Source: Zygnema cylindricum (Eukaryota > Streptophyta > Zygnematophyceae > Zygnematales > Zygnemataceae). Taken from it: a stretch of DNA of 64,000 nucleotides. Below the pieces are notes generated by a model. It was not told the DNA's origin, searched no databases, and saw nothing but the letters and a program-made list of their open reading frames with translations. Positions 9,627 through 54,322 of the stretch are shown here, one piece after another. Location of the stretch: assembly GCA_037447655.1 (NCBI GenBank), contig JBBHKE010000693.1:1-64000 (forward strand). Direction: 5' to 3'. How positions within the stretch are numbered: position 1 is the stretch's first letter; every line of letters starts with the position of its first letter. Made by a program: the position numbers and the translations under genes.

Positions 9627-9628
9627 TC

Positions 9629-28889: not shown

Positions 28890-30343
28890 TGTCAAGTGTG
28901 CCTGAGTAATGTGAGGGAAGGGCCCAAATCCCGGAGTCGTCGGCATCGGAGTCCTACAAATAACCCCCAAATATGAATGCTTCCCAGAATGATGATCATG
29001 CCCACTGCTGCCCACATCCCTCCTATAGATATGTATGCAAAATAGGAGAGACGCTCCGACAACGAATAGGGATGAGTGCAAAAGTTATCCCCTCCCTTTT
29101 CCTTCCCCCCCCATGGCCGGGGAAAGGGATTTGGGTCTCGGTAGTTGGCTGATATCCCAATTTAGTACTACCTCTACGAGAAGCTAATCGCACTTGATCC
29201 CTCAAAACCCACTGTCTTGATCAAGGGGTTTACAAAATACTCCGGGATGGTCACTCCAGAGCAAAGAGAACTCTAGATGAAGACACAAATGCACCACCAT
29301 GTAGAAATATATAGGTAATAGGATTGGCTCTCCAAATTTAACAATATCACCTAGCCTTAGAAAAGAGAATAAAAGAAATATAATGTGAAATATAGCAAAG
29401 AAAGCTTAACATATCCCAGCAATAAACGATGACAACAAGTGAAAGGGGATCCCTCTCCCGATAATATCTTAAATAGGTATGGTGCTCCTAGAACCTCCAG
29501 TGTTTGCAGCTCGGAACGGACCAGACTCTTCTCGGTTTCAAACAGCAAAAAGTCCAAAAATCACCCAAAAAACAAATAGTGCCAACTACCCACCCGGAAA
29601 GTGATTCCCAAAAAAGACATATCCAAAACCAAGATGGCAATAGAGTCAAACAGAACAAAGATTCTCCAAAAAAAGTTTTTTTTGAATTTTTGAGGGTTTT
29701 CACAGGAGAGAGTACTGAGAAAGCAAACTGTCTCCTTCGACCCCAAGTGCCTTATACATCAGAGTTTGTCAAATTGCATGTCCAAAAGTCAAAGCTACGC
29801 TATTAACCAATGAGCAGCGGCAAGTAAGTGTAATGAAACTGACATAGGACAAAATATTTTGTACTACACTCGGGGCAAATAGTTTTGCTCCGAACTGCGG
29901 CTAGATCCGCGGCCGGAAGTAATTATTTGGTCCACTATTATAAGACAAAGTCTTGAAAATGACACTAACTTGCCAAACTTTGACCTAACGTAATTAATGG
30001 ACAAAAAGTCACCTGAGCCTGAGCTAAATTCCTATTAACCGCTAATAGCATAATCCAGATGCAAATTTGGAAAGTTACGTGGCAATCCACAATGTACCCC
30101 CTACGGAGGATGTCGAAAACTGCTCCCTTGTAACGGAATTGCAATCTTTAAAACGGTAGAACTTTGTCATTCGGCATCCATAAGACGAGAAATACAGTGC
30201 GTTCTGCTCGGTTTAGGAAATACAAGGATCTCGTCCAGCTTGGTGCACTCACTCCTCCTTACTCTGAAGACAGTACAGGGTAAAAATGGCCTGAAAATCC
30301 TTGGTGATATACAGGTGTACCTGAAAAACACACGAGCTTGACA
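28890..30343 (-). repeat. Gypsy G complete terminal repeat A2B2
   Basis: Runs from TGTCAAGTGTGCC to CGAGCTTGACA. The part 28890-29163 matches 30346-30630 (B1) and the part 29164-30343 matches 53137-54318 (A1). It ends with 7-bp inverted repeats TGTCAAG/CTTGACA. Confidence 0.85.
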
Positions 30344-30345
30344 GC

Positions 30346-30630
30346 TATCAAACGTGCATGAGTAACGTGAGGTAAGGGCCCACAACCAGGAGTCGTCGGC
30401 ATCAGAGTCCTACAAATAACCATCAAATGTGAATGCTTCCCAGAATGATGATCATACCCACTACTGCTCACATCCCTCCCATAAATATGCATGCAAAATA
30501 GGAGAGACGCTTGGACAAGGAACACGGATGAGTGCAAGGGAAGGCAAAAGTTATCCCCTCCCCTTTCTTTCCCCCCTCCTTGGCCGCGGAAAGAGATTTG
30601 GGTCTCGGCGGTTGGCTGATATCCCAATTT
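30346..30630 (-). repeat. Gypsy G split repeat part B1
   Basis: Matches 28890-29163 (shared GAGTCGTCGGCATC, GAATGCTTCCCAGAATGATG, GGTTGGCTGATATCCCAATT). It ends at AATTT, which is exactly where part A begins in the complete repeat. It is separated from A2 by 2 nt (GC, 30344-30345). Confidence 0.85.
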
Positions 30631-30643
30631 CTTCCCCTCTTAG
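30631..30643 (-). promoter_or_regulatory. Candidate polypurine tract of gypsy G
   Basis: The minus strand reads CTAAGAGGGGAAG immediately before repeat part B1. This is the position where plus-strand priming would start in an LTR element. Confidence 0.55.
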
Positions 30644-30674
30644 TCAACCGTGACAAAGACATAAAATTACCCGC

Positions 30675-30790
30675 CCCATTCGCAGTTCCCACAGAACCAA
30701 GTATTGGAGGATAGAGAACGTGTCTCCCAAGAGGATGGGAGACACGCTGAATGCGAACACTAACCACACTGATTGCAAACGAATAAGTCG
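30675..30790 (-). pseudogene. PHD-type zinc finger remnant at the end of the gypsy G polyprotein
   Basis: Minus strand: LFVCNQCG, an in-frame stop, CSHSACLPSSWE, then NTWFCGNCEWGG and the terminal stop. The spacing C-x2-C-x4-H-x2-C and W-x-C-x2-C is the second half of a PHD finger. The first Cys pair is not visible. This complements the finger of gypsy A, which keeps the first pairs but has lost the last one. Both elements therefore descend from ancestors with a PHD finger after the integrase. Confidence 0.6.
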
Positions 30791-31600
30791 TGGAGTAGGG
30801 AGTACTGATTGGAATCGGATGAACAAGAAAGAGGATCAGCAAAGTAAATTAAGTTAAAAGTAGGTTCGTCCTCCAGTCCCTGAAGATGGCAAGGGGCCAC
30901 ATTGATCTGATTCTCTTTAATTCTTCGTCCATCTTTTCCCTCTAATGTAAGAACCTTGTTATTGGAAACTTTGACCACTTTCAAAATTACTTGTCCGACA
31001 GAAATATCCAGTTTGTCTTTCTTTTGTTGTATCCGGTATACAAAGTCTGTTAGCATAAATCATCGGGGACGTGGCACATAATTCTCGCTCACGCGCAGAG
31101 CATACCAAAACTGACCCATGGCAAGAGGCATCTCTGGGTGACATATCTTTGCTTTGTCGACGATCAGCTTTTCAACTGTTCCCTTGTCATCCATCTCCGG
31201 AGCACCACCGCTTGGGCCGATGCAGCCTCGAAAGGATGGGATGCCGTCAAATAAAATAAAGTAAGAACTATAGGAAATGAGAAAAGCCTGCTTGCAAAAT
31301 CTGTAACCCATAGCAATCCAGGGCACCCTCTTGTCTCACTCCCCCATATCATTTTCAACTACATATTTTCGTAGTGACCGCTTCACTGCCTATACGGACC
31401 TTTCGTCCAAACCGTCAGCTTGCGGGTGGTCACGCTTGGTCGGCCGATGGTTGACAAGGCATGTTTCTAAGAGGTTGGTAAATTCTTCGGCAAATTTGCA
31501 GCCTTCGTCAGTTCGAACTTCTGCAAGCGACGCGAATTGGGCTATAACACTTTTTAAAAAGGCATTTGCAATTGCCTATGACTCGTTCTGGGGCCAAACC
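30790..31600 (-). pseudogene. Gypsy G integrase, core end and C-terminal part
   Basis: From the break near 31600 the minus strand reads AIANAFLKSVIAQFASLAEV, RTDEGCKFAEEF (second catalytic Asp), DHPQADGLDERSVQAVKRSL (catalytic Glu), PWIAMGYRFCKQ, FILFDGIPSF, and YRIQQKKDKLDISVGQVILK with a following GRRIKENQINVAP. The first Asp and the H2C2 finger are missing through the deletion at LTR F. A frameshift separates 31060 from 31056. Confidence 0.75.
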
Positions 31601-31706
31601 ACATATCATGCAAAAAGCTAAGCAAAGCTAGGCCAATGAACAATCATTTGATATGCATCCTCCATTTAACATACATGCATACACAGATGGAATCATTCAT
31701 CCGCAC

Positions 31707-31711
31707 ACAGA
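31707..31711 (+). repeat. 5-bp target duplication of copia C, left
   Basis: ACAGA, repeated at 37249-37253. Confidence 0.85.
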
Positions 31712-32809
31712 TGAAATTCTATGGGCTCCATTGCCCACAGAATTAGCAGATCCAAAAGAAGCTAATCTAGATAATGTCGACTCCAAGTTGATATTAACCC
31801 AAATGAATGATCCCTTGATAATCAAAACCCCAATACAACTTCACCCCTGTGAAGGTAAGACCTTGTGTGTGCTCAGTTCCACCACAGAATGCAAAGCTTG
31901 AATATGTGTTTTGGACAGTATTCCCCACTTTGACTTTCCCACTAAATAAGTGCCACCCTGACACGAAAAAACCTCTAACCGACTACACCGCTGTGTAGCC
32001 TATACTCCTCTGATTTCGCAGCAAAAAGAATCACTGAATTTGCTCATACGAGCATTAAGTTCTGGCTGGTCAAAGATGACATTTATAGTTACAAGCTATT
32101 TTAGAGAGAGGTACCGAAATATCACTAAATCTTAGTCTGCCTACTCATGACTACCTACTACTAAACCCTAGTCCAATAGGAACACTATATAGTACAAGAA
32201 GGTACAATGGGCGATGTACTTATTGTACGGCCATTGTACGACATGGTCTACAAGGTGACATTTGCCAAATCGGGAGCCATGGTTTCTCCTCCCATCTTCT
32301 CCGGTGTCAAATAATGTGGCGCCACGTGGCACCGCGTGACGCTATCCCCAAAGGACACCGTAAGATTATTGCGGGTGGCAGCTGTAATGGTGGTTGTCCG
32401 ATCAGTTGTATTTATAGGGCTTCGATTCGCTTCCGTGCATGAATTGATTAATGCGCGTTTTCGTTAGTCTGCTGCGAATTAGTCCTTTGAATCAATAGGT
32501 AAATATGCGTGAAACATTCCACGTGTATCGTTTTGTTAGTGACATAATGGATAAGACGTTGGTCTATTTAGCAGCCTACAGACCCCGGTTCACATCTGGC
32601 CAGGGGTAGTATTTTGCTAAAACTAGTAAAATACTTTCTAGTTCATTCTGCCTCCTTCTAAATGATGCGGCAACCATGGCGTGCCTTTAGTCCTCTCTTT
32701 CTCTCTCTTCACATTCAAACTAAAATATAGAAGTGAACTATTAGTCACCTCTTTTCAACACTCTATTTATTTTTCCAATACAGACCTAGAAAATACATAA
32801 ATTTCAACA
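31712..32809 (-). mobile_element. 3' LTR of copia C
   Basis: In minus orientation, TGTTGAAATTTATG to CCATAGAATTTCA. Nearly identical to the 5' LTR 34782-37248 once insertion D is removed. Confidence 0.9.
32536..32609 (+). other. tRNA-like module, antisense in copia C LTR
   Basis: GTGACATAATGGATAAGACG (A-box region), TTGGTCT, CAGACC and CCGGTTCACATCTGGCC (B-box with T-stem) give a near-complete tRNA outline including an anticodon stem GGTCT/AGACC. It is the best preserved of these modules. The second copy, in the 5' LTR, is cut by insertion D exactly in the presumptive anticodon loop (35635-35639). Confidence 0.6.
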
Positions 32810-32838
32810 CTCCCCTTATTTTCTAGTCTACTTTCTTT

Positions 32839-34824
32839 TCAACTCCCACTAAACACAAGTTTTTTTTTTTTCCTCTTTTTCTTTTTCTTCTTTCTTTTCT
32901 CCTCATAAAAATCTGAGTGAATACCCTTGTATTTAAAGAAGTGTATTAGATGAACTGAAATAATAATTACATCACACATTTTATTTTGCATGCCATTTTT
33001 CAAAAATCCGAGAAAATACATTATCCACCTCATTTCTTTTCCATCCTTACTAAATCTAATTTCCATCTTGCAATTCAAATAGCCAGCCCTATCTCCAATC
33101 TGCAACACACACCTAGATGCTAACCCTCTTACAGGCACACCTTCATAAATGCCATCACTCCCATTAGTGATGTCAAACCCATTACCCCCCAAATTTTCCC
33201 AAAAAACAAGTGTCCCCACCAAGTTCCTCATAAGATCTACGTCTTCCATACTCGTATTTTTATCCACGATACTCACCCCATTTTCTGAACTTTCCTCACT
33301 CCCTCCCATGGAATTCTTTCCGCTATCACTTTTTATTTTTATTCCCAATAAATAATTCTCCTCCCCTAAACCTTTCATTAAATATTCCTCTTCTCCCCTA
33401 TCTTTTAAAACCCCCTCTATATTTACTTCTCCCCTTTCCTTGAAAGCCGTTGAAGTCTCCGTTTCCGACCAGTTTTCTGTTTCCAAAATATATATTAAAT
33501 TATCATCATTATTTTTATTTTTCCCTTTTTCAATTATAGATTCTAGATCTCACTTTCTATACTCCTTGACATCCACATCATGTCTAACTCCTTTAAGTAT
33601 CTCCCTTCCCTTTACTTCCCTTATACCTCCAAAAGCATGCTGTTGCTTTCGTGGAATTTCTGTGTACTTTTCTCTCTTCTCCATTCTACCAATGTGGAGA
33701 AGCTCTAAGATTTCTTTATCCTCTTTTTGCTCTTCCCTTTCTTCCTCCTCATCCACATTCCAACTTCTAAGTTCTTCCAAACAAGGGCATTCCTCCATAT
33801 AATGACCCGGTTCCCAACAAAAGAAGCAATCACCCTTTTTCAAAGCTCCCCTTTCTTTTCCTCTCCCTCTCTTTCCACCAAAGTTTTGATAATGATTACC
33901 TTCGTCTTTCTTCCTCTCCTCACGCTTCCGCTCGTCACCGCCGTTCTTCTCATCACGCTTCCGCCAATCACCACCAGCTTTAAATGTATTCACCCTGTCA
34001 CTTCCCTTGCGAAGCTCCAAAGTGCTTTCCCTCACAAGAATTATCCCCACGGTAAAGCTCCAAGTCCATGAGGAGCCACCCAATGCCTGCATACGATTAA
34101 TGATGTTTTCATACTCATCTGGGAGTTTCATGAGTAGTGTATTAATCTTTCTCTCCTCAGATTCTACATATCCCGCACTAGCAAGCTCAACATATAACAT
34201 AGCAATATCATTGCAACACTCTATCATGTTACCGCCTTTATAAACATAGGCCTCTATTTCTTGTTCTACTAACTGTTGCCTCTATATAGTCTCACTCTTA
34301 TAAATCTGACTTAGTGTTTCCCAAATTTCTGAAGACTTCGTTAGATTTAAAAGAGTAATAGCTATAGACTTAGACACGTATCTAAGTATGAGATGTTTTG
34401 CTATAGTGTTTTTGTATTCCCATATTTTCTTGTCAATTTCTTCAGTTTTTAGTTCAGTTATAACCCCCACAAGTGGAACCGTAGCCAATAGCCTAGCTCC
34501 CCTCACCATAGGTGTCCCTTTATCCTTCTCTCCTATATCCCCATCCACAGAAAGGTTTTTCCTTTCACATTTCGTTGCATCTGAACTTATGTTGATATTT
34601 TGGGCAGCCTCAGATGGTTCTCCATAGTAAGCTCCTCCAAAGCTAGGTGGCGGACATGTCACTTGTCCCGAAACAATTCCCCATAAGTGCTTCTCGAAAA
34701 GCAATCCCTCCATTTTAAACTCCCAATAAGTGAAGTCAGTTCCATCGAACATAGGCACCCTAGATGGTGGGCCCATAACCTGAAATTCTATGGGCTCCAT
34801 TGCCCATAGAATTCGTAGATCCAA
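32839..34824 (-). pseudogene. Fused Gag/RNase H frame of copia C
   Basis: A single frame of about 660 codons with only two stops (near 34282 and 33550). Order: Gag start FQVMGPPSRVPMFDGTDF (encoded across the primer-binding site), a UBN2-like Gag middle (AKHLILRYVSKSIAITLLNL, EIWETLSQIYKSE), a perfect zinc knuckle CFFCWEPGHYMEEC (complement of 33787-33828), and the first residues of the protease region (HAFGGIREV). It then jumps to a compressed Glu/Gly-rich RT-end/RNase H remnant (YLLGIKIKSDSG, MRNLVGTLVFWENLGG, ITNGSDGIYEGVPVRG). It ends in a poly-Lys tail. There is no catalytic RT or integrase. The first Met (34824) and a second (34800) both lie inside the 5' LTR. Confidence 0.75.
34767..34781 (-). 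promoter_or_regulatory. Primer-binding site of copia C (half initiator tRNA-Met type)
   Basis: The minus strand reads GGTTATGGGCCCACC directly after the 5' LTR terminus TTTCA. This is complementary to the anticodon arm of plant-type initiator tRNA-Met (GGTGGGCCCATAACC), not to a tRNA 3' end. Confidence 0.8.
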
Positions 34825-37248
34825 AAAAAACTAATCTAGATAGTGCCGACTCCAAGTTGATATCAACCTAAATGAATGATCCCTTGATAATCAAAACCCC
34901 AATACAACTTCATCCCTGTGAAGATAAGACCTTGTGTGTGCTCAGTTCCACCACAGAATGCAAAGCTTGAATATGTGTTTTGGACAGTATTCCCCACTTT
35001 GACTTTCCCACTGAATAAGTGCCACCCTAACACACAAAAACCTCTAACCGACTACACCCTGGTGGAGCCTAGACTCCCCTGAGTCCGCAGCAAAAAAAAA
35101 TCATTGAACTTGCTCACACGAGCATAGTTATGGCTGGTCAAAGATGACCTTTATAGTTACAAGCTCTTTTAGAGAGGGGTACCGAAATATCACTAAGTCT
35201 TAGTCTGCCTACTCATGACTACCTACTACTAAACCCTAGTCCAATAGGAACACTATATAGTACAAGAAGGTACGATGGGCGATGTACTTATTGTACGACC
35301 ATTGTACGACATGGTCTACAAGGTGACATGTGCCAAATCGGGAGCCATGGTTCCTCCTCCCATCCTTTCCGGTGTCAAATAATGTGGCGCCACGTGGCAC
35401 CGCGTGACGCTATCCCAAAAGGCCACTGAAAGCTTATTGTGGGTGGCTGTTGTAATGGTGGTCGTCTGATCAGTTGTATTTATAGGGTTTCGATTCGCTT
35501 CCATGAATGAATTAATTAATGCGCGTTTTCATTAGTCTGCTGCGAATTAGTCATTTGAATCAATAGTTAAATATGCTTGAAACGTTCCACGTGTATCGTT
35601 TTGTTAGTGACATAATGGATAAAACGTTGGTCTATTTAGTGTTTTCTTTGGTCTAAAATAGACCGCAGAAGCAACCCAAACTATCATGCAAAAAGCTAAG
35701 CGAAGCTAGGCCAATGAATAATCATTTGAAATGCATCCTCCATTTAACATACAATAACATTTAGGGTTTCATGAAATAATCAACATAAATAAACCCTATG
35801 ACATCATCTAAGGTTTGATGGAATAATCGACATAAACAAACCCTAGGACAAATGCATAAACAATGCATATCAAACATATATAAAATAACATAAATAAATA
35901 ATAAAACAAATGCATCACACATAAACAAGAGTATAATCAAAGTATAATCAAATAATCATTATACCATTCAAAGCGCATGACCTAATCGACAACCCTAAAT
36001 TACTACATCTTTGGTCCCCACTTTACTAACCAGCATTGATGATTAATTCCTAACAAAGCTCATTCCTATATATACACTTGTGAGTTGTCAATGAATTGCT
36101 ACATGTCAAAATAGCCAACGTACCTTCCACTAAGTAGTATTACATAATGAGAAACTATTACGACAAATAATCCTAACTGTAAGTGTACACCTGAAAGTCA
36201 ACCAATCATAAGCGTAAACTTGTTGGCAAGTACGACAACACACAATTTAAACTACCGAAACCCTAAATGATCATCTAAATAAAAGCTGTCATAATCAATA
36301 CTAAATTATTATTACACATACGACAAAACAATGTTATTTCAAATATTTTCACCGACGCGTTCGCAAAATACGCGTCATAAGCGACAACTCACTTAGTCAC
36401 TTGTAGATAGATCCACGTAGTGAACCGACATCGCATATGTACGGTCCACTAGATAATGTGTCATAAAAAACAATGTGGTCTCTTAAAAATATCGGCAGAC
36501 GCCGTTCGCCCTCCACGTGTACCATGACCAACTTGCCGAAATCAATTCGTACGATCCAAATCCTGTCCGTACCGAAATCACGTACTTCGTCATAAATGCG
36601 CCTTGTCGCATTTAAGGTACACGTCATTTTCGATAAATGTATGTCGTAAATAAAGTACACCTAATAGTACACCTGTCCAATATAGATTCTATTTACCATG
36701 GCGTAATTTCCATAAATCTCGCGCGCCAAATTTAAAGTACACCTGTCGCATTATGTTTTGTACGTGCGACGTACCATTTTATCTTCGTTGATTATCTCAT
36801 GTCGGATCGCTTTGCGATCCGCCGTCCATTTCCTCTCACATTTCGTGCCACTCAATTACTCCATTAAATTTACTCGTTCATTTAATTCCCCCAATCCGCA
36901 AATCCTTTCAAACCTCCACAGTATATCGCGTAAATGCGTACGCACGAAACATCGCGTACGCACGAAACGCCGTGTTCGCACGAAACTAACTTTTCAAAAA
37001 CAACATTTAGCAGCCTACAGACCCCGGTTCACATCCGGCCAGGGGTAGTATTTTGCTAAAACTAGTAAAATACTTTCTTATTCATTCTGCCTCCTTCTAA
37101 ATGATGCTGCAACCATGGCGTGCCTTTGGTCCTCTCTTTCTCTCTCTTTACATTCAAACTAAAATATAGAAGTGAACTATTTGTCACCTCTTTTCAACAC
37201 TCTGTTTATTTTTCCAATAGAGCCTTAGAAATTATATAAATTTCAACA
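34782..37248 (-). mobile_element. 5' LTR of copia C, split by solo LTR D
   Basis: 34782-35639 plus 37006-37248 together match the 3' LTR at 31712-32809. The interruption carries its own 5-bp duplication TTTAG. Confidence 0.9.
35640..37005 (-). mobile_element. Solo LTR D (TGTTGTT family)
   Basis: Ends TGTTTTCTTTGG and AAAAACAACA with a perfect TSD TTTAG (35635-35639, 37006-37010). Strongly similar to E (51305-52699) and F. In minus orientation its first 100 bp resemble the 5' end of the Gag-only copia LTR (AAAAGTTAGTTTCGTGCG). It contains the hairpin GGATCGC-TTT-GCGATCC (36804-36820). Confidence 0.9.
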
Positions 37249-38561
37249 ACAGACGGAGCAAGCATGCATACATAGACGCATGAAATCATCTAGAGTTTCA
37301 TGGAATGGAAGCTTTAGTATATCTCCATCATCATAACAAACCCTAAGAAAATGCATGACATAACAAACACAACTAAGGTTTGATGGAGTAATCAATATAA
37401 ACAAACCCTATGACAAATGCATTAACGATGCATAACAAACAAGCATATAAATAATAACACATGAATGCATCACAGATAAACAAATGTATAATCAAATAAT
37501 CAATTTATCACTCAAAGTGCATGACCTAATCGACAACCCTAAAATACTATATCTTTGGTCCTCACTTTACTAACCTGCATTGATGATTAATTCCTAACAA
37601 AGCTCATTCCTATATATACACTTGTGAGCTGTCAACGAATCACTAAGTGTCAAAATAACCAACGTAAATTATGTAACTATCATCAAGTCTTATTTAACCA
37701 TAATAAACTGCTACTAAGAATAAGCTAATCGTAAGCGTACATTTGAGAGTCAAGCAATCATAAGCGTACACTTGTCTACAAGTACGACACATAAACACAC
37801 ACAATTTAGAGTTTCCAAACCATAAATGATTACGTAAATAAAAACTGTCATAATAAACACTAATTTATTAATACAAATAAGACAAACCAATGTTGTTCCA
37901 AATATTTACAAGTACACACAATCGCACAGAATCGTATGTTGAGTCATGTTGAGTCACTCAAGGTAACTCTTTGATTTTCGTCAAAGAATATAGGACGTCC
38001 AAAACATACATCTTGTGATTTGACGCGATTTCCCGTTCCCACAACTTGAAATATTACGGCGGCCTTTGTCCGCCGTCCGTACCTATTATTCGGCACCCTT
38101 GATGTCGCACCACGTGGTCCCAAAGTCCACTTGACGAAATGACGTCAAACCATCCAAATTTGTCCGTACCACAATTACGTCCTTCGCCATAAATGACGCA
38201 TGTCAAATCTAACGTCCACTTGCAAAAGAAGACGTTTCGTACCGACGGCGTCCTTTTTAATAAATGTCGCCTGTCACATTTTGTTTCGTACGTGCGACGT
38301 ATAATTATATACACTTCGAATTTCAAACATCGGATCGCTTCGTGATCCGCCGTCCATTTCACTTACGCAAACCGTACTTTTACATATGTTTGTTCGCGTC
38401 ACTCAATTAGTACTTTTGTACGTCTCAACCAATCAATGGAACCATGCGAACCTCTACGCTACCCTTGGTGAACATGTACGCACTAAAATCCGTGTACACA
38501 CTAAACATCCCAAACGCACGAAACGACTAGTACGCACGAAACTAAATCTTCAAAATCAACA

Positions 38562-39743
38562 GTTACTGTTATAATTCCCTTCCGCTCTGTTGTTGCTCTG
38601 GCTGGCGTAGGCCACCACATATTCAGCTCCGGCATCATCGACTTGAGCCAAAACCGCTCTTAATCCAAACCTGCTCCAATCAGTGTAAAGGAGAAAAGGC
38701 CTTTAGTGATCAGGCATCTGGAGCACAAGGTGTTGCTTTATAGCATCCTTGAATAACACGAAGGTGATACGTTGTTCTTCAACCCACTGCCATTCTTGGT
38801 CCTTCCACAATACCTAGTTGAGGGGTTGAGCGTGACTACTGAACTCGGGGACAAACTGCCTATAGTAGTTTGCCAGACCCAAAAAGGTGCGAAGGGCCGA
38901 GATGTCCTACGGTGGGGGAAGAGCGTGAAGGGGTGCCACCTTGACCATATGAGGACCCACAGTCCCATGAGTCACCACATGTTTGAGGTAGATGATCTTG
39001 TGTACCCCAAAAATACCTTTGCCCGGGTGACATTTCAAGCCCCCTACTTCGAGTGCCCGGGGAATAATCTGGACATGCTCGAGGTGTTCCTCAAAAGTCT
39101 TTGAGAATATGATAACGTCATCAATTTAGCACCAGGCACAATCGATTCCTAGGAGCGCTTTGTCCATTGCCCGTTGGAATTTGGTCGGTGCATTAGTGAG
39201 CCCGAATGGCATGTAAATCAATTCATAAAGTCGGGAACTAGCCCAAATTGCGGCTCTCTCACTGTGCTTCGGTTCCATGGCAATCTGGTGGAAACCGTTC
39301 TTAATGTCCCGATTGGAGTAAATAGTGGCGCCAGCAAGAGAGTCAAATATCTCTTCCGGGGTCGGCATCAGATACCGGTCAAAGATGATGGCTGTGCTCA
39401 GTATCCTATAATCTCCACACATCCGGAAATCTACAGTCTTCCCGGACGAGTCCTTCTTTGGAGGGAGAAGCGTCGGGGAGGCGAACCCATGAAATCTTGT
39501 GCTTTCCTAAACTAATCCGACTTCCACCAAAGTCTGGACTTTCGCCGTAATGAATTCTTTCTCCTTGAAGCTAAGAGGATACTGCTTCTGCCAAACAGTA
39601 GTCGTCTCGTCGATCAAATCGATTCGGAAAGGTGTTTTTTTGTAAATACCGACATCTGTTTCTGACCATGAGAACACCTGATTGTTTTTGGCCAACAACT
39701 CGAAAAGCCGCGCCTTCTGCTGAGGGTCGAACTGCTCCCCCAA
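38562..39743 (-). pseudogene. Gypsy G reverse transcriptase and RNase H
   Basis: 39743-39507 shows RLFELLAKNNQVFSWSETDV and a DLIDETTTVWQKQYPLS segment. 39422-39126 shows MCGDYRILSTAIIFDRYLMP, IYSNRDIKNGFHQIAMEP and MPFGLTNAPTKFQRAMDKAL. The active-site box reads stop-IDDVIIFSK (Tyr codon mutated to a stop). FLGLANYYRQFV follows in another frame. RNase H segments LLYTDWSRFGLRAVLAQ and VVAYASQSNNRAEGNYNS run into LTR F at 38561. Several frameshifts are present. Confidence 0.8.
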
Positions 39744-40249
39744 GTGCTTTCTATTTTTCCCGGCTCAACGGCAGCCCCAGCTTTTGTCGGTCTCCCCCAG
39801 AGTTTAATGTCAAATTCCAACCCTATTGGTGGATCTGCATGTACCCCTCCGGCTAAGACACTACTGCTGACAACTTCCGCTAAGCTATCGTCATCTAAGC
39901 CGTCGCTCCCGCCCCCCACTAGAAAAACCTACGGCGATGAAATGTGATTTTTTCTCCTTTCTCTTTCTCCCTCAAGCTGCAAAGTTGCCTGCATAGCAAA
40001 CAACCGAGGAGCTTGAAGTTAAATAGCCCTTGATTTCGGGGACTTGAGACTAGAAAAGGCGAGAGCATGCTTGAGCACCCATGTAATCGAATTCAAATCC
40101 ATACTTTGTCCAATTAGGCTGCACCTGTGAAGGTCTGAAATACCTAGTGTTGTCGTGGTGCCTTTATGAAATCCCATTGTTGCTTCCTATTTTGCAATTA
40201 TTGGTGTTGTCCAGAGTCCCGCGTTACTGTCAAAAATCATTCTTGCTGC

Positions 40250-41042
40250 TCATTTTTTATAAGCCTCACTGTAAGGAAAAGAGACCAAAGTCGGGAATGC
40301 TTTCCTTGGGAATCCCGGTTTGTTGCACCGAAAGACAAAGGAGCGGTCGCGTTGAGTCACACGGGTGGCCATTCTCCCTTCCCCAGGTATTTGCTGCACA
40401 TAATTTTGCGGGTCAGAGATATTCTTCTCCAACAATAAGTGGAGGACTAGAATCGAGATCATATTGGTCGAATATGCCCTGACTCTGTGAGGCTGGGATC
40501 CCATCTGGGCGGCGTCAAAAACCAAGGGAGCTCCTAAAATATGGGTTACGTGATTCCAAGTGTCCGCAACTTGTTTTCGTTTATCATCTCCCGGGTGGAT
40601 ATTTTCCAGAACGTACCCCATTGTTGTGTCCTGGAGCTATTAAAGCCACGAGATTAATTCGATCAACCTGTAAAATGTTCCAATTTTGCGGTCTTGATGC
40701 CCTTTTCCTTTTCATGCTAAAGAGTATCTCGACAAAGCCATCCTGCCATCACAAGATCTATTTTTTCCAAACCGGTTAGATGGTGTTTCAGGATGTTTAT
40801 ATATTCTGCGGAAGACTCCGTTGAGCTTTAGAAAAGGCAAACACTGGAAGCTGCTGAGGATATAGGGTGTGAAGTCGTTGAAGGCGGTGTTCGTTGACAG
40901 CGTGTGCCTCTGGTGATATCTCCACGAGTGTATATGACTCTACCCGATATCCTGTTTTTAGAACAGCCTCTAAATCCGAACTGATTCCAGAAAATAAAAA
41001 TAAGATTCGGAGTTCGGAATCTGGGACTGTCAATGACACCAC
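40250..41042 (-). pseudogene. Cytosine-5 DNA methyltransferase domain in gypsy G
   Basis: Motif I is LRILFLFSGISSDLEAVL, where the second Gly of FxGxG is replaced by Ser; YTLVEISPEAHAVNEHRL follows (the acidic residue of motif II/III). Motif IV, after a frame change, is DLVMAGWLCRDTL, with the catalytic Cys (codon 40732-40734) kept and PCQ altered to LCR. Motif VI is MGYVLENIHPG. Motif VIII is VFDAAQMGSQPHRVRAYSTN. The order and spacing match the domain of gypsy A, but the two differ strongly in sequence, so they represent diverged lineages of methyltransferase-carrying elements. It sits between protease and RT. At least two frameshifts and several stops make it inactive. Confidence 0.82.
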
Positions 41043-41459
41043 CTGTCGGTTGAATTCCTTGTTACCGGACCTGGTTTTGGAAGCATCACACAGGGGTGTA
41101 AAGATGACTTATTTTATTGGTAAAGCCGAAAAAGTCTGATCCACTCCCCGCCGGAGTTTCGCCACCAGTAATAATCTATTCTTGTATTTCTCTTTCCACC
41201 GCTTGGAAATGGAGAATTGCTAAATTTCTTCGGCTATATTTGTTGAACTGCCAAATAGTTCCGTCGGAGAGTATGTAGTATACACCGAGTAGCAACTAGA
41301 CACCGGGACATTTGTCTTCCCTCGATTCCATAAATCCAAAGGAACCACCACTTTGGTTCCTTCGAGATTTCTAGGGTCTCGAACGGTACACTATTATTTC
41401 CACACGCTCAAACTCATATTTAGTCTGTTCGAAGTAGCCATTCCCAACAAAATTTCGAA

Positions 41460-41915: not shown

Positions 41916-41999
41916 GAGTCTTTACGTGGGTGAGGGCGTATGGCATGAGGTGATAAACTACCATGATAGTCGGTTTGGAGGAAAAAAGGGTAGTTTTTG

Positions 42000-43932
42000 G
42001 TGAAGATGGGAGTGAATCCTGTTCCTGCGGATCCTGATCATGTCCTTTGTTCTTATCATTCTCAAAGCTAGAATTTGGAATTGACGGAGTTTGAAGAGTG
42101 TAATTTTCCGAGCGTTCTGTCATCTATCTTTTAAACAAGTCCTCATTGACCTTTTTCTCTTGTTCCAGTGACTCCTTTTCCTGTTGTTGTTTCTCGCTCT
42201 GGCAGTTCTCGAAATCGGGAGGCAAATTAGGTTTGGGAGGAAAGGATGGCAGATGAGTGGGTTTGATTCCGAGGCCAATGTCGTTATTAAGCAATACTAC
42301 CCGGGGAGTAAAGGACAAAGGACCGATAGCTTACCGGTTGTGGTCCCTCTAACCTATTCTGTGCTTGTCGTGTCTTTGCATGGAGATGGAATTGCAGAGT
42401 TGGCGGCTGCTATCTCTCACAACAACATTCCAAGTTTAGGACACGAAAGTTCAGGCATGGTGGGCATTTGGGGGTTCCAAATCCCAGCCTAATAAGTCAT
42501 CATCATTAACACCCGCTGTGCTTTGAAGCTCAAGATGTGCGAGCTTTTGTAACAACTCATGTTTATGTTTTTGGAGTCGTTGTGGTGCCGTGAGCGAAGC
42601 AGGCCGAGAAGATGATCCCAAGCGAAGGGCATCCAACTCGGCAGCCATTCGGGTAAGTTGGTGATTATACTGTTGGATGATGAATTTCTGTGTAAGTCTT
42701 GTTGTAGCCACCGGTGTTCGCTCCGGTTCCTCTCGAGTAAGCGGAACTTGGTGCCCCCAAGGGAAGAGGAGTTGAAGTAGGAGAGGGTTAACGACAATTT
42801 CTCTTTCTCCAGTTAATAGGGCGAACTACATCATTTCTTTAGGTACTCCATTCTTTTAGAAACATTGCGTTTCTTTATGCCCGAGGAAGCGGCAAGCCTT
42901 GCATTTTGTTCCTTCTGAGGTGTATTTACTGCGGATTTTATTTGAGATTTGGGCATCATCAAACTTTGGAAGTTTGATTGATTTGTCGCAGCAGGGATTG
43001 CGACATTTTGGCCGTTTCTCCTCGGGGAGTCGGACGATAAGTGTCCATGGTTACAGGCGTCTTCTCTCCCCCCCCTTCCGCTTTAAGCCTTTCTTGTTGC
43101 TTCCAGGTCCTTTTTGCACATTCTTTCTCCCATTGTTTTAGCTTTAAGGTCAGCTCCGGTATAAGTTTCCGTGTGTAGTGCTTCAACCCATGGCCTATTT
43201 GTTGACAATTTAGGCTATTGTAAAGAAAAACACTTTCGTCTGCTCCCATTGCCGATTGTGACCCGCTGTCAGCCACTTGCTTCCCTTTGAGATTTCGCAA
43301 AGCTTAAAGTTCAACCTTTTCCTCCTTACTCAAGAAGGTCTTCCCGGCCAATCCTCCAAAATTTTCGCGGGCCTTGTGAGTCACAACCTTCTCCCTTGCC
43401 TCACTGTGGACAAAGTGATTATACAACTTTATCGCCATCAGCGAAATGTCCTTAGCGGAGGGATTAATGTCGTGAATTGCCTATCCGGCAAACTAATTAC
43501 CCAGATCAGTCTGCTCTTTTGGCCCGAAGCGATGAAATATTTGGTTGTCATCGCCGGAAGATCAATAGTGGAAAGCTTTGTTTTCTAACAAAGACTGGAG
43601 AGTCGGTTAAAAAGGGTCTACGGAAGATTGTTCTTCAAACAGCAGAATTCCGTGAATTCCTTGATCGCAGACTCATGCTTCTAGGTGTAGAGGAACCTCC
43701 AGATATTCAGCAGAGTAGTACAAGGGTTGGGGTTGGCAACCATGCAAGTTGCCACCCAGGCCGCCTGAATGGCTTGTAGCTACTAAACATAGACGCTTCC
43801 TTGGGCTTGGAGTTTCATGTCATCTATGAAGGTAGCAATCACACGTGTTGCAGCAGCTACAGCAAAGTCAACCTCCTCTTGTAGAACAGCAACGTCAAGA
43901 GCAAGATCTGAGATCTTGATGTTGGGAGCCAT
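42000..43932 (-). pseudogene. Gypsy G Gag with CCHC zinc knuckle
   Basis: The start is placed at 43932 (MAPNIKISDLALDVAVLQEE, a helical N-terminus). Stops occur after about 50 codons and again downstream. Residual frames 43300-42959, 42711-42451 and 42318-42124 are charged and helical. A perfect zinc knuckle CKACRFLGHKETQC lies at the complement of 42863-42903, and a damaged second one (CQQIGHGLKH) near 43200. Length and order suit a gypsy Gag. Confidence 0.65.
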
Positions 43933-44351
43933 CAAGAGTGGTTGTCACTTTTTGTAATCCGCCAACTCCCCTCAGAAAAGTAGTTGACCATCATTGGGAA
44001 AAAGGTTGTTTCAAAATCATCCAAAATGGCTCCTCCCCTGTATTTGTTGATCTCGGATTGTGTCAAAGATTTCCACAACAATTCAAAATCTGAAAATGCG
44101 ATCCCCGAGCTATCTCCGGTAAAGATCCGGATGTCCCCTATTTTTTTTTCCTCTACAAAATTTGTGAATTATGAATAGGAGGGCCAAGTGGTACTGACAA
44201 ACTAAGAAAGCGAGATGACTCCTATGTCCTCTTCCTAGGGACCGAGACCGTCTCCTCCTCCGATAAAAGATGCTGCCAAGAGAGGTATGGATCCCCCTCT
44301 CACAGAGGAAGTACCAGCTCTTGAAATTTTTGTTGGGGGAAGGGTGTTCCC

Positions 44352-45089
44352 TGTTGTTCTGAGACAAGTGTTGGTACTGAAGATGAAGAAGATGCAGCAG
44401 TAGTCATCGTAGAACAAATCAAGAGAGGAAGCTTCCACAAATACCGATGGCTGAACAGCAACTTTGACAGACTATAACTTTCAGAAAAACGCTCCAAACG
44501 TCCTGAAAATTTGCCACAATGTAGATTACATACAAAGAAACACACACACAAAATTTCAATCAATTCCGCTCACAAATCTGTGAGATATGTAGAAATGAAA
44601 TTACATAAAACTGAGTGTACAGTTTTCATATCATTTGTTCCTAAAAATCAAATTCACTAAGTCCTACTTTTATACACCGAAACTACACTAATCTGTACAG
44701 AGGCATTCCAGCCGTACATCTAACATTCTATCACAAATATTTACACCGAAGTTCAGACAACGTAAAGTGATAATGATCTAGTCACGCCTCGTCACTATTT
44801 GTTGGCGGCGGCTGTCAGCGGTCTGATTAGAGGATTTGGCACCGTAGAATTGACTTCACGAAGTCTAGTGATCTTGCCGAATTTCCGTACGTCCACGGAG
44901 GACATACTCACGCATTCTCCCAAGTGACGACACGTGTCCCAAGTGTGAATGAACCGTGAACTCCCAACTTCACTGTCACACTAATTTCGGTAAGTACTGA
45001 ACCAAACTCAACCAAAAATAGCTGAAGTCCTGAACAGCTCTCTCTCACAGCTGAGGCATAAAGAGGACTAAAGCTTTCTAAAAACAACA
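44352..45089 (-). mobile_element. Solo LTR L (TGTTGTT family)
   Basis: Ends TGTTGTTCTGAG and AAAAACAACA, with a perfect 5-bp duplication TTCCC (44347-44351 and 45090-45094). It is shorter than D and E and lacks the GGATCGC hairpin. It interrupts the leader/5' ORF of gypsy G. Confidence 0.85.
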
Positions 45090-45094
45090 TTCCC

Positions 45095-46741
45095 AACTCC
45101 TCCTCTATATCCAGGAGAGTATTGTTCTTCCCTGGGAACTTGCACCACCGATGGGATGTGGAGGCGAGGTTAGATCAAATAAGGTTTTGGGGAATTGGTG
45201 GTGGCGGAGAAGGGGACGACTAGAGGCTTTGAGGAGAAGGTGTCTGTCTCTAGAATGGTGTCTGTCTCCTAGGTCGCCTTCGAGAGGGCTCGGGAGGAGT
45301 TCTTGAATTGGAGGAAGGGGAATGTCGGTGGGGAGGTGAGTAGACGTCGTGTTTGTAGGGTAAGAGAGGCGGATCCGGTGACCCACGGACTGCTGCAGCG
45401 CGAGAAAAGGATGAAGTGGGAGAGGAGTTAGGAACGTCCCGAGGCTCTGTTGTAGGATCTGGGGAGAGAGAAGATGGAGGAGGAGAAGATGGGAGATCTT
45501 GGGATATTTCGAGAGATGGTGATGGGGGTGTTGACGGCCTCAAGGGAATGTGAATCCTCTTATCCGGTCGTAACTCCACCAACGCCTCCATAGCAAAAGG
45601 AACCTCCATCGAGACAAAGACAGGCTCTTCCCGGGGAAGAAAAACAAACTCAGGAGGTAAATCTCCACCCAAACTCTTCATGCTAGCTTCAATGTTTTCC
45701 CCCCCTTCCAGATGAAGAGGAGGCTCTCGGCTGGTTTTTGAGGAAGGAACTTCGGGCTGGGTGCTTGCAAGAGGAGAAGTCCATTGAGCGCGCACTTTGG
45801 GATGCGGCTCTATCCTTAGTGTAGGAGGAATCTGCCCACTGAAAATCCCACTAGATCTACGCCTAGTTTCTTGAATAAGTTTCAATTCCTGTTCCTATAA
45901 CTTTCGCATTTCTACCTCTAAGGTTTCCCAATCTACCGTGACGGGTCCGACCCCCGCCGTAGACTTTGCACTGGGATTTTAGAACTTCCACTAGATCCTT
46001 GGCCTTTTCCACTACTTTAGTAAGATTCGTTATCCCCATCCCCGAAATTACATTAGGTCTGGTCTGCCACCCACCCTCAACGAAATCTTTTGGTCCCATA
46101 CCCGGTACCTTTGGATCAATCGGTTCACATCGCCAAAGCCTTTCGACAAGGCGGACAAGAATTGCCGTAGGAGAAGGTCTCTCAGTTAAGGCTAACACAG
46201 GAGTTGGGGACGTCTCCTCTTTGGGAAGAGGTGGGAATCTCCTCTTACTCTCCCTGTGGTCAAACCTCTTTCCCCTCAATGGATCTTTAGCTTCCCTTCA
46301 CTTCTCCTCTACGAGGCCTCGAGGAGGGTTGTCCCCGAGAGGGTCTGCTGGTTGTTGTATCTTGAGAGGAAGATGGAGGAGGACGAGAATAGGTAACTCT
46401 TTGTGACCAGTCCGGCACCGACAGATAAGAGTTGCTTTTCAAAGAACTGCTCAAAATCTCCACCACCCCTCTCACGAGTCTAACCACTCTAACTCTATCT
46501 GTCCGAGCCACTCTTTGCACCAACTCCTTCTTCATCTTCAGCTCATGGAGGTCGTAAAGGGTAAGGAGTTCTTTACAACCTGGGCGACGTGGATCTGTCA
46601 AAACCGTGTGGTCAATGTGGATCTCGGCCCGAGGAATCTTGGATCTGGTGTGAAGCCCGACCTCCGGCAGAGGACCCATATGGGGCTCCCTCTGCGCTTG
46701 CCGCTTTAGCCTGGCTCTGGGAGCCACTCGGTTCCTTTCCG
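45095..46741 (-). pseudogene. Pro/Ser-rich ORF near the 5' end of gypsy G
   Basis: Three consecutive minus-strand frames (46727-46287, 46279-45863, 45885-45250) overlap or nearly abut, consistent with one ORF broken by two frameshifts. The first part has a coiled, basic ELKMKKELVQRVARTDRVRV stretch. The middle has a hydrophobic ITNLTKVVEKAKDLVEVLKS helix. The last is strongly Pro/Ser/Arg-rich. The 5' end lies at 52764-53136, beyond the Gag-only copia insertion. The product was not recognised. It has no counterpart in gypsy A, and could be an extra structural ORF or a captured host fragment. Confidence 0.4.
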
Positions 46742-47688
46742 TGTTGTTTTGAAAAGTCAGTTTCGTGCGTAACTGCTAATTGGATTTAATATGGAAGTTT
46801 GAATAGATTCACGGATTGGGAGAGCGAACGGATTGATAATTAAAGTTAAGTAAAAGACTCATTGAATGGTGTGAACAAGTAATGACAAATGGACGGCGGA
46901 TCGCGAAGCGATCCGATGTAAAATAAACGGAATGTTGAAATAGGCGCCGCCGGTACGGAGCAGCTGCGACGCAGCTAAGTCAACGCAGTTGCGGCTATTT
47001 TATGATCCGTACGGAAAGCGCAGCCATCGCAGCTAGCGCAACTACGGATAGATTTCAAGTAATGATGAATAAACGATAGTGGTAGCTTAGTGGTTGCTTA
47101 GTGGTAGCTTAGTCTCTGACATACGAAGAGTACGGTGTAAATATTATGTACAACAAAGGTTTGTCCTTTTGACTAGTTAGGTTATTAGAGTAGATACAGT
47201 ACGGCTGGTATGCCTCCGTACTCTGAGTATAACTTGCAGGACTTAGATTATTTTATGTATCGCAGTCAAGTTAATCAAAGTAATGGCAAACTGTATTCTG
47301 CATCTTTGACCTGTTGGTGTGATCACTCAGATTGGTGCTTTCATGTGAAACTTTGTGGAGTTATTTTATGATATAGAATATATATGTGTGTGAAGTTTCA
47401 TTTTATTCCAGTATCTTTGTAAGATTCTGTGAACAGTCTAAGTAGCTAGTTTGTGAAGCTGTCAACTACTTCTGGGAAACTCTGTAGCCTATATCTTTTA
47501 GATGCCTTGGTGGATTTGGCTGTAACTTTGGGAGTTTATAGTGTATATGGTATACTGCATATTGGTGCAGTTTGAGACCATTTTGTTTAGTGTGGAGTAA
47601 TCTGTGCTGTCTGAAACACAGCTGTTTTTGAGGTAGTCTGTGGGTGTTTCCGTGAGTAATCCATGGCTGAAATAGGCTATGGACAACA
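46742..47688 (+). mobile_element. 5' LTR of the Gag-only copia
   Basis: TGTTGTTTTGAAAAG to GGCTATGGACAACA. The 3' copy is nearly identical by eye. It contains the hairpin GGATCGCGAAGCGATCC (46898-46914). The gag start codon (47663) lies inside it. Confidence 0.9.
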
Positions 47689-49946: not shown

Positions 49947-50041
<95 letters not shown>

Positions 50042-50195: not shown

Positions 50196-50380
50196 CTGCG
50201 ATGTCAAACTAGCGTAGCGTAGCAGCATAGCAATACATGTTGCACTTTGTATTCACACTGCGCTGCGATGTCAAACTAGCACAGCGTAGCAACATAGCAG
50301 TACACGCTGCACTTTGTATTCATACTGCGCTGCGATGTCAAACTAGCGCAGCGTAGCAACATAGCATTACACGTTGCATA
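50196..50380 (+). repeat. 67-bp tandem repeat, about 2.7 copies
   Basis: CTGCGATGTCAAACTAGC starts at 50196, 50263 and 50330. Each unit continues with GCGTAGCAACATAGCA and a TGCACTTTGTATTC block. It ends about 36 bp before the polypurine tract, so it occupies the 3' end of the internal region. Confidence 0.9.
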
Positions 50381-50416
50381 TTTTTCTGGGTGCACGAAAC
50401 TAAATTTTCGGGGGAG

Positions 50417-51304: not shown

Positions 51305-52699
51305 TGTTGTTCTTTGGTCTAAAATAGACCGCAGAAGCCACCCAAACTATCATGCAAAAAGCTAAGCAAAAATAGGTCGACGAACAATCATTTGAAATGC
51401 ATCCTCCATTTAACATACAACAACATTTAGGGTTTCATGGAATAATCAACATAAATAAACCCTATGACAACATCTAAGGTTTGATGGAATAATCGACATA
51501 AACAAACCCTATGACAACATCTAAGGTTTGATGGAATAATCGACATAAACAAACCCTAGGACAAATGCATTAACAATGCAAAACATATATAAAATAGCAT
51601 AAATAAATAATAAAAACAAATGCATTTCACATAAACAAAAGTATAATCAAAGTATAATTAAATAATCATTATATCATTCAAAGTGCATGACCTAATCGGC
51701 AACCCTAAAAGTCTACATCTTCGGTCCCCACTTTACTAACCAGCATTGATGATTTTTCTAATGAAGCTCAAATCTATATATACACTTGTGAGCTGTTAAC
51801 AAATCACTAAGTGTCAAAATAACCAACGTAAATTACGTAACTGTCATTAAATCAAACTAATCGTAAGCGTACACCTGAAAGTCAAGCAATCGTAAGCGTA
51901 CACTTGTCTGCAAATACGACACATAAAGACACACAATTAAACTGTCGATATCCTCATTGATCACCTAAAATATAACTATTTTAATCAACACTAAAATATT
52001 AATTCACGTAAGACAAAACAATGTTGTTTCAAATATTTATACCGACGCATCCAAAAATCCGCGTCATAAGTGACAACTTGCTTAGTCACTTGTCGATAAG
52101 TCCACGTAGTGAACCGACATCGCATATGTACGGTCCACTAGATAATGCGTCATTAAAGATAATGAGATCCCTTGAAAATATCGGTAGACGACATTCGCCC
52201 TCCACGTGTACCATGACCATTTTGCCGAAATCAATTCGTACGATCCAATTCTGTCCGTACCGAAATCACGTACTTCGTCATAAATGTGCCTTGTCGCATT
52301 TAAGGTACACGTCATTTTCGATAAATGCATGTCGCAATAAGCGACAACTTAAAGTACACCTGTCAAATACGACGCTCCGTACCGGCGGCGTCCCATGTAA
52401 TAAATGTCACCTGTCGCATTATGTTTCGTACGTGCGACGTACAATTTTACGATTTTACATACTTCGAATATCATACATCGGATCGTTTCGCGATCCGCCG
52501 TCCATTTCACTTTTGTATTCCGTATTATTCGTACGCTTCTTCGCGTCACTCAATTTTGTAATTTACGTCACTTTAAATTCATTCGTACAATTACCCCCCA
52601 ATCCATAAATCCTTTCGAACCTCCACAGTATATCAGATAATTACATACGCACGCAAACATGCGTGCGCACATACGAAACTTAATCTTCCAAAAAAAACA
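51305..52699 (-). mobile_element. Solo LTR E (TGTTGTT family)
   Basis: TGTTGTTCTTTGG to CCAAAAAAAACA, flanked by TTTTT (51300-51304, 52700-52704). It is similar to D and F over its whole length, including the repeated TAAACAAACCCTATGACA segments near 51490-51555 and a hairpin at 52480-52496 (one mismatch in the stem). Confidence 0.9.
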
Positions 52700-52763
52700 T
52701 TTTTGAGGTAGTCTGTGGGTGTTTCCGTGAGTAATCCATGGCTGAAATAGGCTATGGACAACA

Positions 52764-53136
52764 TTCTGGGGCCTGAGCCCGGGCTTCTTTCCTTACCTTA
52801 GCATAGACCCTAGCGGCCGCCGCCAAGGAATGGTAATGTTTGGGAGTCAGACTGAGAGGAGGAGGAGAAGAAGCACCAGCCGGCTCTTTGGCTGGTAAAT
52901 CAAAGACAATCTCCATGGGTTTAGACTTCTCGGACCTCTAAGACTATCCCTCTTGTACGGGCCTCTCGTGCCTACCTTGCTCTCCATATCCATGATCCAA
53001 CGTCGATCCTCCCTCCAAGATGACAAAGGCAACGAGAGAAATAGTAATGAATGTCACTAGAGCTCACTTCCAAAAAGAGAGCTTCCAAAGTTAAAGCTCT
53101 TATCCCCTCTAATCCAAGCAGACAGGGTGCTTTTTC
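52764..53136 (-). pseudogene. 5' end of the gypsy G Pro-rich ORF
   Basis: The minus strand reads a short Pro/Ala stretch (IVFDLPAKEPAGASSPPPLS, SLAAAARVYAKVRKEARAQA) that continues across the Gag-only copia insertion into 46741-45095. Nothing upstream in this segment looks like a standard primer-binding site; the minus strand directly after repeat part A1 begins GAAAAAGCACCC. Confidence 0.4.
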
Positions 53137-54318
53137 AGTACTATACTTCCTCTACGAGAAGTCAATCGCACTTGTTCCCTCAAAACCCACTGTCATGATC
53201 AAGGGGGTTTCAGTTTACTCCGGGATGGTCACTCCAAAGGAAAGAGAAATATAGATGAAGACACAAATGCACCACCACGTAGAAATATATAGGTAATAAG
53301 ATTGGCTTTCCAGATTTAACAATATCACCTTGCCCTAGAAAAGAGAATAAAAGAAAGAGAATGTGAAATACAGCAAAGCAAGCTTAACATACCCCAGCAA
53401 TAAACGATAACAACGAGAGAAAGGCAATCCCTCTCTCGATGGTATAGTAAATATGTATGATGCTCCTTTAACCTGCGGTGTCCTCAGCTCGGAACCGACA
53501 AGACTCTTCTCAGTTTCAAACAGCAAAAAGTCAAAAAATCACCCAAAAAGCAGATAGTGCCAACTACCCACCCGGAAAGTGATTCCCACAAAAGACAGAT
53601 CCAAAACCAAGATGGCAATAGAGTCAAACAGAACAAAGATTCTCCAAAAAAAGGTTTGTTGGAATTTTTGAGGGTTTTCACAGGAGAGAGTACTGAGAAA
53701 GCAAACTGTCTCCTTCGACCCCAAGTGCCTTATACATCAAAGTTTGTCAAATTGCAGGTCCAAAAGTCAAAGCTACGCTATTAACCAATGAGCGGCAAGC
53801 AAGTGTAATGAAACAGACATAAGACAAAATATTTTGTACTACACTCGGGGCAAATAGTTTTGCTCCGAAATGCGGCTAGATTCGCGGCAAGAAGTAATTA
53901 TTTGGTCCACTATTATAAGACAAAGTCTTGAAAATGACACTAACTTGCCAAACTTTGACCTAACGTAATTAATGGACAAAAAGTCACCTGAGCCTGAGCT
54001 AAATTCCTATTAACGGCTAATAGCATAATCCAGATGCAAATTTGGAAAGTTACGTGGCAATCCACAATGTACCCCCTACGGAGGATGTCGGAAACTGCTC
54101 CCATGTAACGGAATTGCAATCTTTGAAACGGTAGAAATTGGTCATTTGGCCTCCCTTGGACGCAAAATAATGTGCGTTCCGCTCAATTTAGGAAATACAA
54201 GGATCTCGCCCGGTTTGGTATACTCACTCTTCCGTACTCTTAAGACAATACAGGGTAAAAAGGGCCCGAAAATCCTTGGTGATATACAGATGTTCCTGAA
54301 AAGCACACGAGCTTGACA
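53137..54318 (-). repeat. Gypsy G split repeat part A1
   Basis: Matches 29164-30343 along its length, with 29560-30110 and 53540-54090 especially close. It begins AGTACTA, the exact point where B1 stops, and ends CGAGCTTGACA, followed by the TTAT duplication. Confidence 0.85.
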
Positions 54319-54322
54319 TTAT

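Follow-up and report, generated by a model that had tools for sequence, protein, structure and literature searches.

A gypsy lineage with split terminal repeats in Zygnema cylindricum: probable integration of circles carrying two long terminal repeats by a DDE integrase

Do DDE integrases ever use circles of long terminal repeat (LTR) retrotransposons in nature? We return to this old question because of a 64,000-nucleotide stretch of Zygnema cylindricum DNA (assembly GCA_037447655.1, contig JBBHKE010000693.1, positions 1 to 64,000; hereafter the window). It contains a Ty3/gypsy element (E1; minus strand, ~28890-54318) with a terminal repeat split into a 5' part (A) and a 3' part (B). Numbered in the orientation of the element, the parts follow the order A1-interior-B1-GC-A2-CT-B2. 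A second, diverged element (E2) lies in the same window. Split direct repeats of the A1-B1-A2-B2 type are described for PAT, Toc, Kangaroo and Ngaro in the part of PMC4157794 used here. Those elements encode a tyrosine recombinase, whereas the elements here have DDE integrase domains and 4-bp target duplications. The tyrosine-recombinase elements are assumed to pass through a circular intermediate. For E1 and its relatives, the best explanation is probably a two-LTR circle that was closed by end joining and then opened by the DDE integrase.

The first-pass annotation, made from the letters of the window alone, had recognised a complete repeat that divides into A and B, and a blastn comparison of the window with itself agrees with its positions: A2 occupies 29166-30343 and B2 occupies 28890-29163 (minus strand, as are all parts of E1 below unless stated). 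A1 (53144-54318) begins with TGTCAAG and matches A2 at 91.6% over 1178 columns. B1 (30346-30630) matches B2 at 85.5% (30348-30630 versus 28892-29163). In base differences, this amounts to 96/1175 sites between A1 and A2 and 30/272 between B1 and B2. Just two nucleotides, GC (30344-30345), separate B1 from A2 in the near-palindrome CTTGACA-GC-TGTCAAG, although the B1 arm of E1 itself reads TTTGATA. The A1/A2 differences are unevenly spread: 20 fall in the 600 sites from 200 to 799, as against 76 in the remaining 575 (chi-square p ~1e-6), a pattern that suggests chimeric copies or gene conversion in the promoter part.

The outer ends of E1 look like those of any integrated element. They are TG/CA, with TGTCAAG opening A and CTTGACA closing B2 (a 7-bp exact inverted terminus), and TTAT on the plus strand stands directly outside both (54319-54322, ATAA on the minus strand, and 28886-28889). 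There is no target duplication at the A/B break. The exact break, the inverted termini and the TTAT copies had all been noted beforehand, and all hold. When the flanks are joined with a single TTAT, they give one uninterrupted frame of a host Copia Pol, in which Pfam recognises RVT_2 (2.4e-16), SH3_retrovirus (1.2e-8), gag_pre-integrs (8.7e-9) and Pol_BBD. Since the host frame is continuous and TTAT lies at the outer ends, everything from A1 to B2 arrived as a single unit.

Is this layout an accident of one copy? The host assembly (352,776,454 bases, 353 Mb, in 2689 contigs) was searched with A, and the best 40 of 1410 candidates were scored, giving the 41 best matches to the window copy. Two of these lie in the window and one is a small piece within another locus; the remaining 38 were read. 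The interior directly follows A in 17 target-A-interior copies and in one A-interior copy cut at its 5' side. B stands in front of A in 14 B-A-B copies and in three B-A copies with a cut or unclear 3' side, among them L027 with just 160 bp of B at 71%. The other three are a target-A running into the start of B, a 5'-cut A-B and a target-A followed by a gap. For the E2 family, the best 40 of 726 candidates were scored and both ends of 10 full-length copies were read: four are target-A-interior, two are B-A-B and four are solo A-B units (L060/L061, L070/L071, L076-L079), the counterpart of solo LTRs. The order B-A-interior was found in 0 of the 38 and 0 of the 10; ordinary copies, which the first-pass annotation had named as a refutation of its reading, did not appear among those read. 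One B-A-B copy (L028), arranged in tandem or nested, has a further partial B and the start of an A close behind it.

An ordinary A-B LTR element that had been rearranged once, through a nested insertion in a tandem LTR pair, two deletions or an assembly error, would explain why A-B has textbook TG..CA ends with a target duplication and why solo A-B units exist. We give this explanation almost no weight: a complete LTR, A and B together, directly precedes the interior in 0 of 48 further copies from two families, A1-type and A2-type copies lie on many contigs, the A/B break is free of a target duplication, and in both families a polypurine tract and a primer site sit at that break. Two specific versions were rejected: a foreign element nested in an A-B LTR is ruled out by the recurrence and the missing duplication at the break, and ends of A and B made by two chance deletions are ruled out by the E2 family. 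Nor was an independent gypsy LTR pair found inside 30631-53136, where both long repeat pairs are Copia-type.

The break itself carries the borders expected of reverse transcription. The A in front of the interior had been drawn to 53137; A is indeed there, but its homology ends at 53144 and is followed by a primer binding site (53116-53142). This site is complementary at 23/27 positions to an inner segment of A itself (A1 positions 604-630; 53689-53715), which lies 19-45 nt behind the start of a TATA-like box at 53734. Dinucleotide shuffles reached this match in 0/1000 cases against A1 and 1/1000 against A2. In E2, the primer binding site (19129-19149, minus strand) pairs at 19/21 positions with the A2' of the same element and likewise with the neighbouring A3, a match reached by 0/1000 shuffles. 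Primer zones paired with the A of the other family no better than shuffles did, and 0/200 control zones matched the primer-site scores.

Across the genomic copies, the best primer match falls at A 608-634 in 15 of 18 loci and at the corresponding place in the 5'-cut L046 (16/18 in all), and 12 of these 16 loci score 11 or more. Three matches are perfect (L029, 24/24; L032, 22/22; L021, 21/21). Even the A/T counts of the two partners change together: in L021 and L029 the site has five A and the repeat five T, and in L010, L032, L035 and L036 both numbers are four. E2-family copies match the A2' segment of the window at 22, 21, 20 and 16 of 23 positions. A TATA-like box starting at 583-585, ~23 nt ahead of the segment, was present in 12/18 copies and in L046, and would place the RNA start inside A. 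Tf1/sushi-type gypsy elements are self-primed in this manner, with a primer site immediately after the LTR that pairs with the 5' end of their RNA, and the geometry of primer site and TATA-like box here is that of a self-primed element. The likeness to Tf1 has limits: Tf1 uses an 11-nt self-primer and has ordinary LTR ends, unlike the ~22-nt self-primer here and integration ends that would lie inside the LTR.

At the other border, B1 of E1 directly follows the polypurine tract AAGAGGGGAAG (30631-30641), so that the earlier description of B1 behind such a tract and 2 nt from the complete repeat is borne out. A G-rich purine tract is at the same place in all 11 of the 14 B-A-B loci that were read there, and in both families B1 has a purine tract in front of it (in E2 at 9815-9827, minus strand). 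With the primer site behind A1 and the polypurine tract before B1, the LTR of reverse transcription is therefore B-A. Reverse transcription would thus treat B-A as the LTR, while the integration ends appear to sit inside B-A, at the CA-NN-TG near-palindrome. An alternative in which B is a leader and TTGGGATATCAGCC, which we take to resemble the initiator-Met primer site, serves as a tRNA-type primer site was also considered; it was rejected, as B ends at the duplication in all ten insertions with an exact duplication. The 12-mer of that initiator-Met site is a weak yardstick, since at up to 2 mismatches it was found nowhere in the window, even behind the Copia LTRs.

Integration marks support ends of this kind. 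Exact 4-bp duplications lie outside the outer A and outer B in 10/12 testable insertions, where a match by chance is expected in ~1 in 256 per insertion. The duplications in other copies include AGGG (C1255), GGCG (C1949), AGGC (C2264), AGAT (C2496) and ACAA (C1031, in which A1 and B2 are about 32 kb apart). An internally deleted copy, A-380 bp leader-B (C1673, L013), has an exact CTAC duplication. Another insertion (C814; L037, L057) consists of A1-interior-B1 only, with exact CATG; such a form would come either from recombination between B1 and B2 or from a one-LTR circle that integrated directly. Outside the test fell L010/L011, L032/L054 and L040/L058, in which the outer B is missing or beyond the stretch, and E2, whose outer B end is gone. 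The B-NN-A spacer was measured in 16 of the 17 loci in which B precedes A and is 2 nt in all 16 (GC in 10), as it is in both A2-type copies of the E2 family. The outer ends have no spacer, which is what an integrase cut behind CA on each strand would leave.

The joint between A2 and B2 behaves differently from these constant borders. Measured between fixed anchors at 13 loci (11 of those in which B precedes A, together with L030 and L042), it was 8, 9, 9, 10, 10, 11 (five times), 12, 12 and 27 nt long. The A1|primer-site border, by comparison, was 10 nt in 16/17 copies and 9 nt in one. The 27-nt joint (L016) contains a long G run like that of a polypurine tract, as though the joint had taken in the tract. 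A variable A|B joint next to a constant B-NN-A spacing fits joining of LTR ends followed by a cut at the internal palindrome.

We propose the following route, in which E1 would be a decayed but otherwise normal member of a Ty3/gypsy family that integrates as A1-interior-B1-NN-A2-B2. Transcription would start inside A1, and the first ~22 nt of the RNA would fold onto the primer site behind A and prime the minus strand. The plus strand would be primed at the polypurine tract directly before B, and the product of reverse transcription would be a linear B-A-interior-B-A molecule. The cell would then join the linear ends into a two-LTR circle. Ignoring the LTR ends, the DDE integrase would cut one of the two internal CA-NN-TG near-palindromes, lose the 2-nt spacer and insert the opened circle with a 4-bp target duplication. 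The other palindrome, not cut, would remain as B1-NN-A2, and the newly joined LTR ends as A2|B2. A circle opened at an internal palindrome is what the first-pass annotation had put forward, and that proposal is largely supported by the outer-end duplications, the inner-only spacer, the primer and polypurine borders and the variable joint.

The palindrome cut is not without precedent: cutting of palindromic two-LTR junctions by retroviral integrases in vitro is described in the part of PMC1905944 used here, and the CA..TG junctions of HIV-1 (and, by citation there, of PFV-1) resemble those of E1 in being palindromic and, under the route proposed here, in being cut internally by a DDE integrase. 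The same part calls retroviral two-LTR circles dead-end products, whereas here the heritable form of the element would carry the mark of that route.

The same ends could be reached without a closed circle. Prolonged strand-displacement synthesis, read-through RNA or a concatemer might give a linear B-A-interior-B-A-B molecule in which the integrase trims both palindromes. This accounts equally well for the outer ends, the spacer and the target duplications, and known LTR elements as a rule take a linear route. The A2|B2 joints are nevertheless variable in length, one with a G run like that of a polypurine tract, and resemble end joining more than continuous copying; we regard the linear route as a rather unlikely competitor of the circle.

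A tyrosine-recombinase element of the DIRS/PAT/Ngaro type, its recombinase overlooked, would also produce this repeat layout, which matches that of PAT elements as far as PMC4157794 was drawn upon. Pfam finds the integrase domains Integrase_H2C2 and rve instead, and the insertions have 4-bp target duplications. To our knowledge, the recombinase elements should lack such duplications. No phage-integrase domain was seen among the Pfam-scanned pieces, which come from decayed copies and were not subjected to a search aimed at recombinases. Taken together, we consider an overlooked recombinase very improbable. The Pol order RVT_1-RT_RNaseH-Integrase_H2C2-rve was found in E2 and in pieces of two genomic copies (L054 and L057: RVT_1 2.4e-12, RT_RNaseH 2e-17, Integrase_H2C2 9.4e-16, rve 1.7e-12), with the protease assigned by position only. 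The first-pass annotation's DDE integrase is thus right for the family; in E1 itself, RNase H and the first half of the integrase were not found, and nested Copia-type DNA stands in their place.

Several observations count against integration of a self-primed two-LTR circle. No circular DNA was observed, and the free circle is read back from integrated copies. The B-A ends are putative cDNA ends. In vitro, cutting of the palindrome by HIV-1 integrase mostly gives 4-base overhangs, and a cellular role is unproven, according to the same part of PMC1905944. The joint lengths exclude three loci at which the anchors failed (L038, L039, L044). At the primer site, E2 matches its own A1' at only 11/11 positions, which 12/1000 shuffles reached; L015, L017, L023 and L040 have weak sites with scores of 9-10, near the shuffle mean of 8; L019 and L031 have no self-primer match; and L046 departs from the pairing of A and T numbers. 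Two of the target duplications, GGGG (C2051) and ATGT (C2157), require substituted B2 ends, CTCGTTA and CTCAACA. A solo copy (C1003) has the flanks TACG/TGAT with no matching duplication, and at the solo A3-B3 unit of the window only 3 of 4 duplication bases match. Finally, the copy counts cover only the best-scoring 40/1410 and 40/726 candidates. With these points included, we lean towards a gypsy lineage that regularly integrates two-LTR circles by a DDE cut inside the LTR, inherits split repeats and uses the 5' end of its own RNA as primer, and do so less firmly than for the circle route as such.

How much of this is new? KnitGypsy-Dnmt3 from Klebsormidium nitens (de Mendoza et al. 2018) is an LTR Gypsy element with a cytosine methyltransferase in the Pol open reading frame, and the Fig. 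4 legend attributes to it the repeat layout of a DIRS retrotransposon (PMC5890265). As far as that published description allows a comparison, the elements here are alike in having a methyltransferase inside gypsy Pol and A-coding-B-A-B repeats. The main text of PMC5890265 makes no mention of circles, palindromes, self-priming, primer binding, target sites or PHD. The split-repeat architecture is thus already in print for one alga, with the route not discussed in that main text, and the novelty implied by the first-pass annotation falls away for the layout; the mechanistic evidence from the copies described here is apparently new. We know of no self-priming, PHD finger or integration marks for KnitGypsy-Dnmt3.

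If the circle route is correct, split repeats would have evolved convergently as a footprint of circle integration, whichever recombinase is used, and the split-repeat layout becomes separable from tyrosine recombinases. Integrated copies would record the route at base level: a joined junction (variable), a cut junction (2 nt lost, 4-bp duplication) and an uncut junction (2 nt kept). With many copies in one genome, the route is testable by sequence and by circle sequencing. One host and two families are also added to the methyltransferase-carrying gypsy elements.

E2 has the same split-repeat layout as E1 (8.2-20.5 kb of the window, minus strand throughout). It was located by tblastn with E1 pieces at 14342-10607 (34-47% identity), and the repeats of the two families have no mutual match in the blastn comparison of the window with itself. 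A1' (19152-20526) is 86% identical to A2' (8242-9626); B1' (9629-9814) is followed by the 2-nt spacer GA (9627-9628), and only the first ~49 bp of B2' remain (8194-8241), then a CT repeat, the outer end being lost. Within its Pol are pieces of a C5 cytosine methyltransferase (13647-14462), of which 13647-14015 matches Pfam DNA_methylase over the cut-off (7.2e-6) and 14127-14462 has no Pfam match but matches the E1 methyltransferase piece by tblastn. Reverse transcriptase (RT) and RNase H follow (11522-12630; RVT_1 0.0022, under the cut-off; RT_RNaseH 2e-20; 45% for RT by tblastn), then an integrase with zinc-binding domain and core (10553-11518; Integrase_H2C2 6e-16; rve 9.1e-6, under the cut-off) and a PHD finger (9888-10010; Pfam PHD 4.7e-10). 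The solo A3-B3 unit (5819-7385, minus strand; flanks TCAG/TCAA) has 8-bp exact inverted termini.

The coding interior of E1 is more decayed. A gag/protease region, assigned by position and split into several open reading frames, lies at 41463-46297; the gag/protease pieces tried gave no Pfam match at 0.01, and a similar reading was made by eye in a genomic copy (L054). Between the protease position and RT is a C5 cytosine methyltransferase remnant in three frames (40100-41108), which matches E2 at 34% and 42% by tblastn. Its pieces have no Pfam match of their own, and a PDB sequence search with them gave chance-level matches or none; the identity of the remnant follows from Pfam DNA_methylase in its relatives (in L054 4.1e-4, under the cut-off), the tblastn match to E2 and the motif order seen by eye. 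Reverse transcriptase pieces (38910-39764; Pfam RVT_1 9.8e-11) are followed, past the nested Copia-type DNA, by the second half of the DDE integrase (core piece and C-terminal part, 30763-31575). The core is 47% identical to 10777-10607 of E2 by tblastn, and the E1 integrase pieces have no Pfam match. A tblastn search of the window with the E2 open reading frame 10838-11518 (RNase H end and integrase) returned only itself. Pol ends in a PHD-like finger with one stop inside (30670-30870; Pfam PHD 0.023, under the cut-off, for a 30-aa half), and its final stop codon (30667-30669) is about 25 nt ahead of the polypurine tract. In the genomic stretches L054 and L057, PHD scored 0.0086, also under the cut-off; the 3' end of an element was reached in 4/13 downstream stretches (L049, L054, L057, L058) and in none of the other 9. 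Protein database searches returned no homologue, and when viral contigs were scanned with two of the protein pieces, no relative turned up.

Two nested complexes make up about 13 of the 22.5 kb of the E1 interior. The two long direct-repeat pairs (46741/50416 and 31712/34781) enclose Copia-type gag (Retrotran_gag_2 1.1e-15 and 3.7e-7, respectively), and the second complex has approximate borders at 31595-38570 with its LTR pair at 31712-32571 and 34781-35639. The 64 bp at 47625-47688 and at 52700-52763 are 100% identical; they lie at the inner edge of one nested Copia LTR and 1.4 kb past its partner LTR, which hints that another, related element inserted at the same place. Elsewhere in the host genome, NAC transcription factor domains (PF02365) gave 11 matches on 6 contigs, with matches in 0/14 control genomes; given how these domains are distributed, this indicates a streptophyte host. 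Some pairs of these contigs score near-identically, as in a partly haplotype-duplicated assembly.

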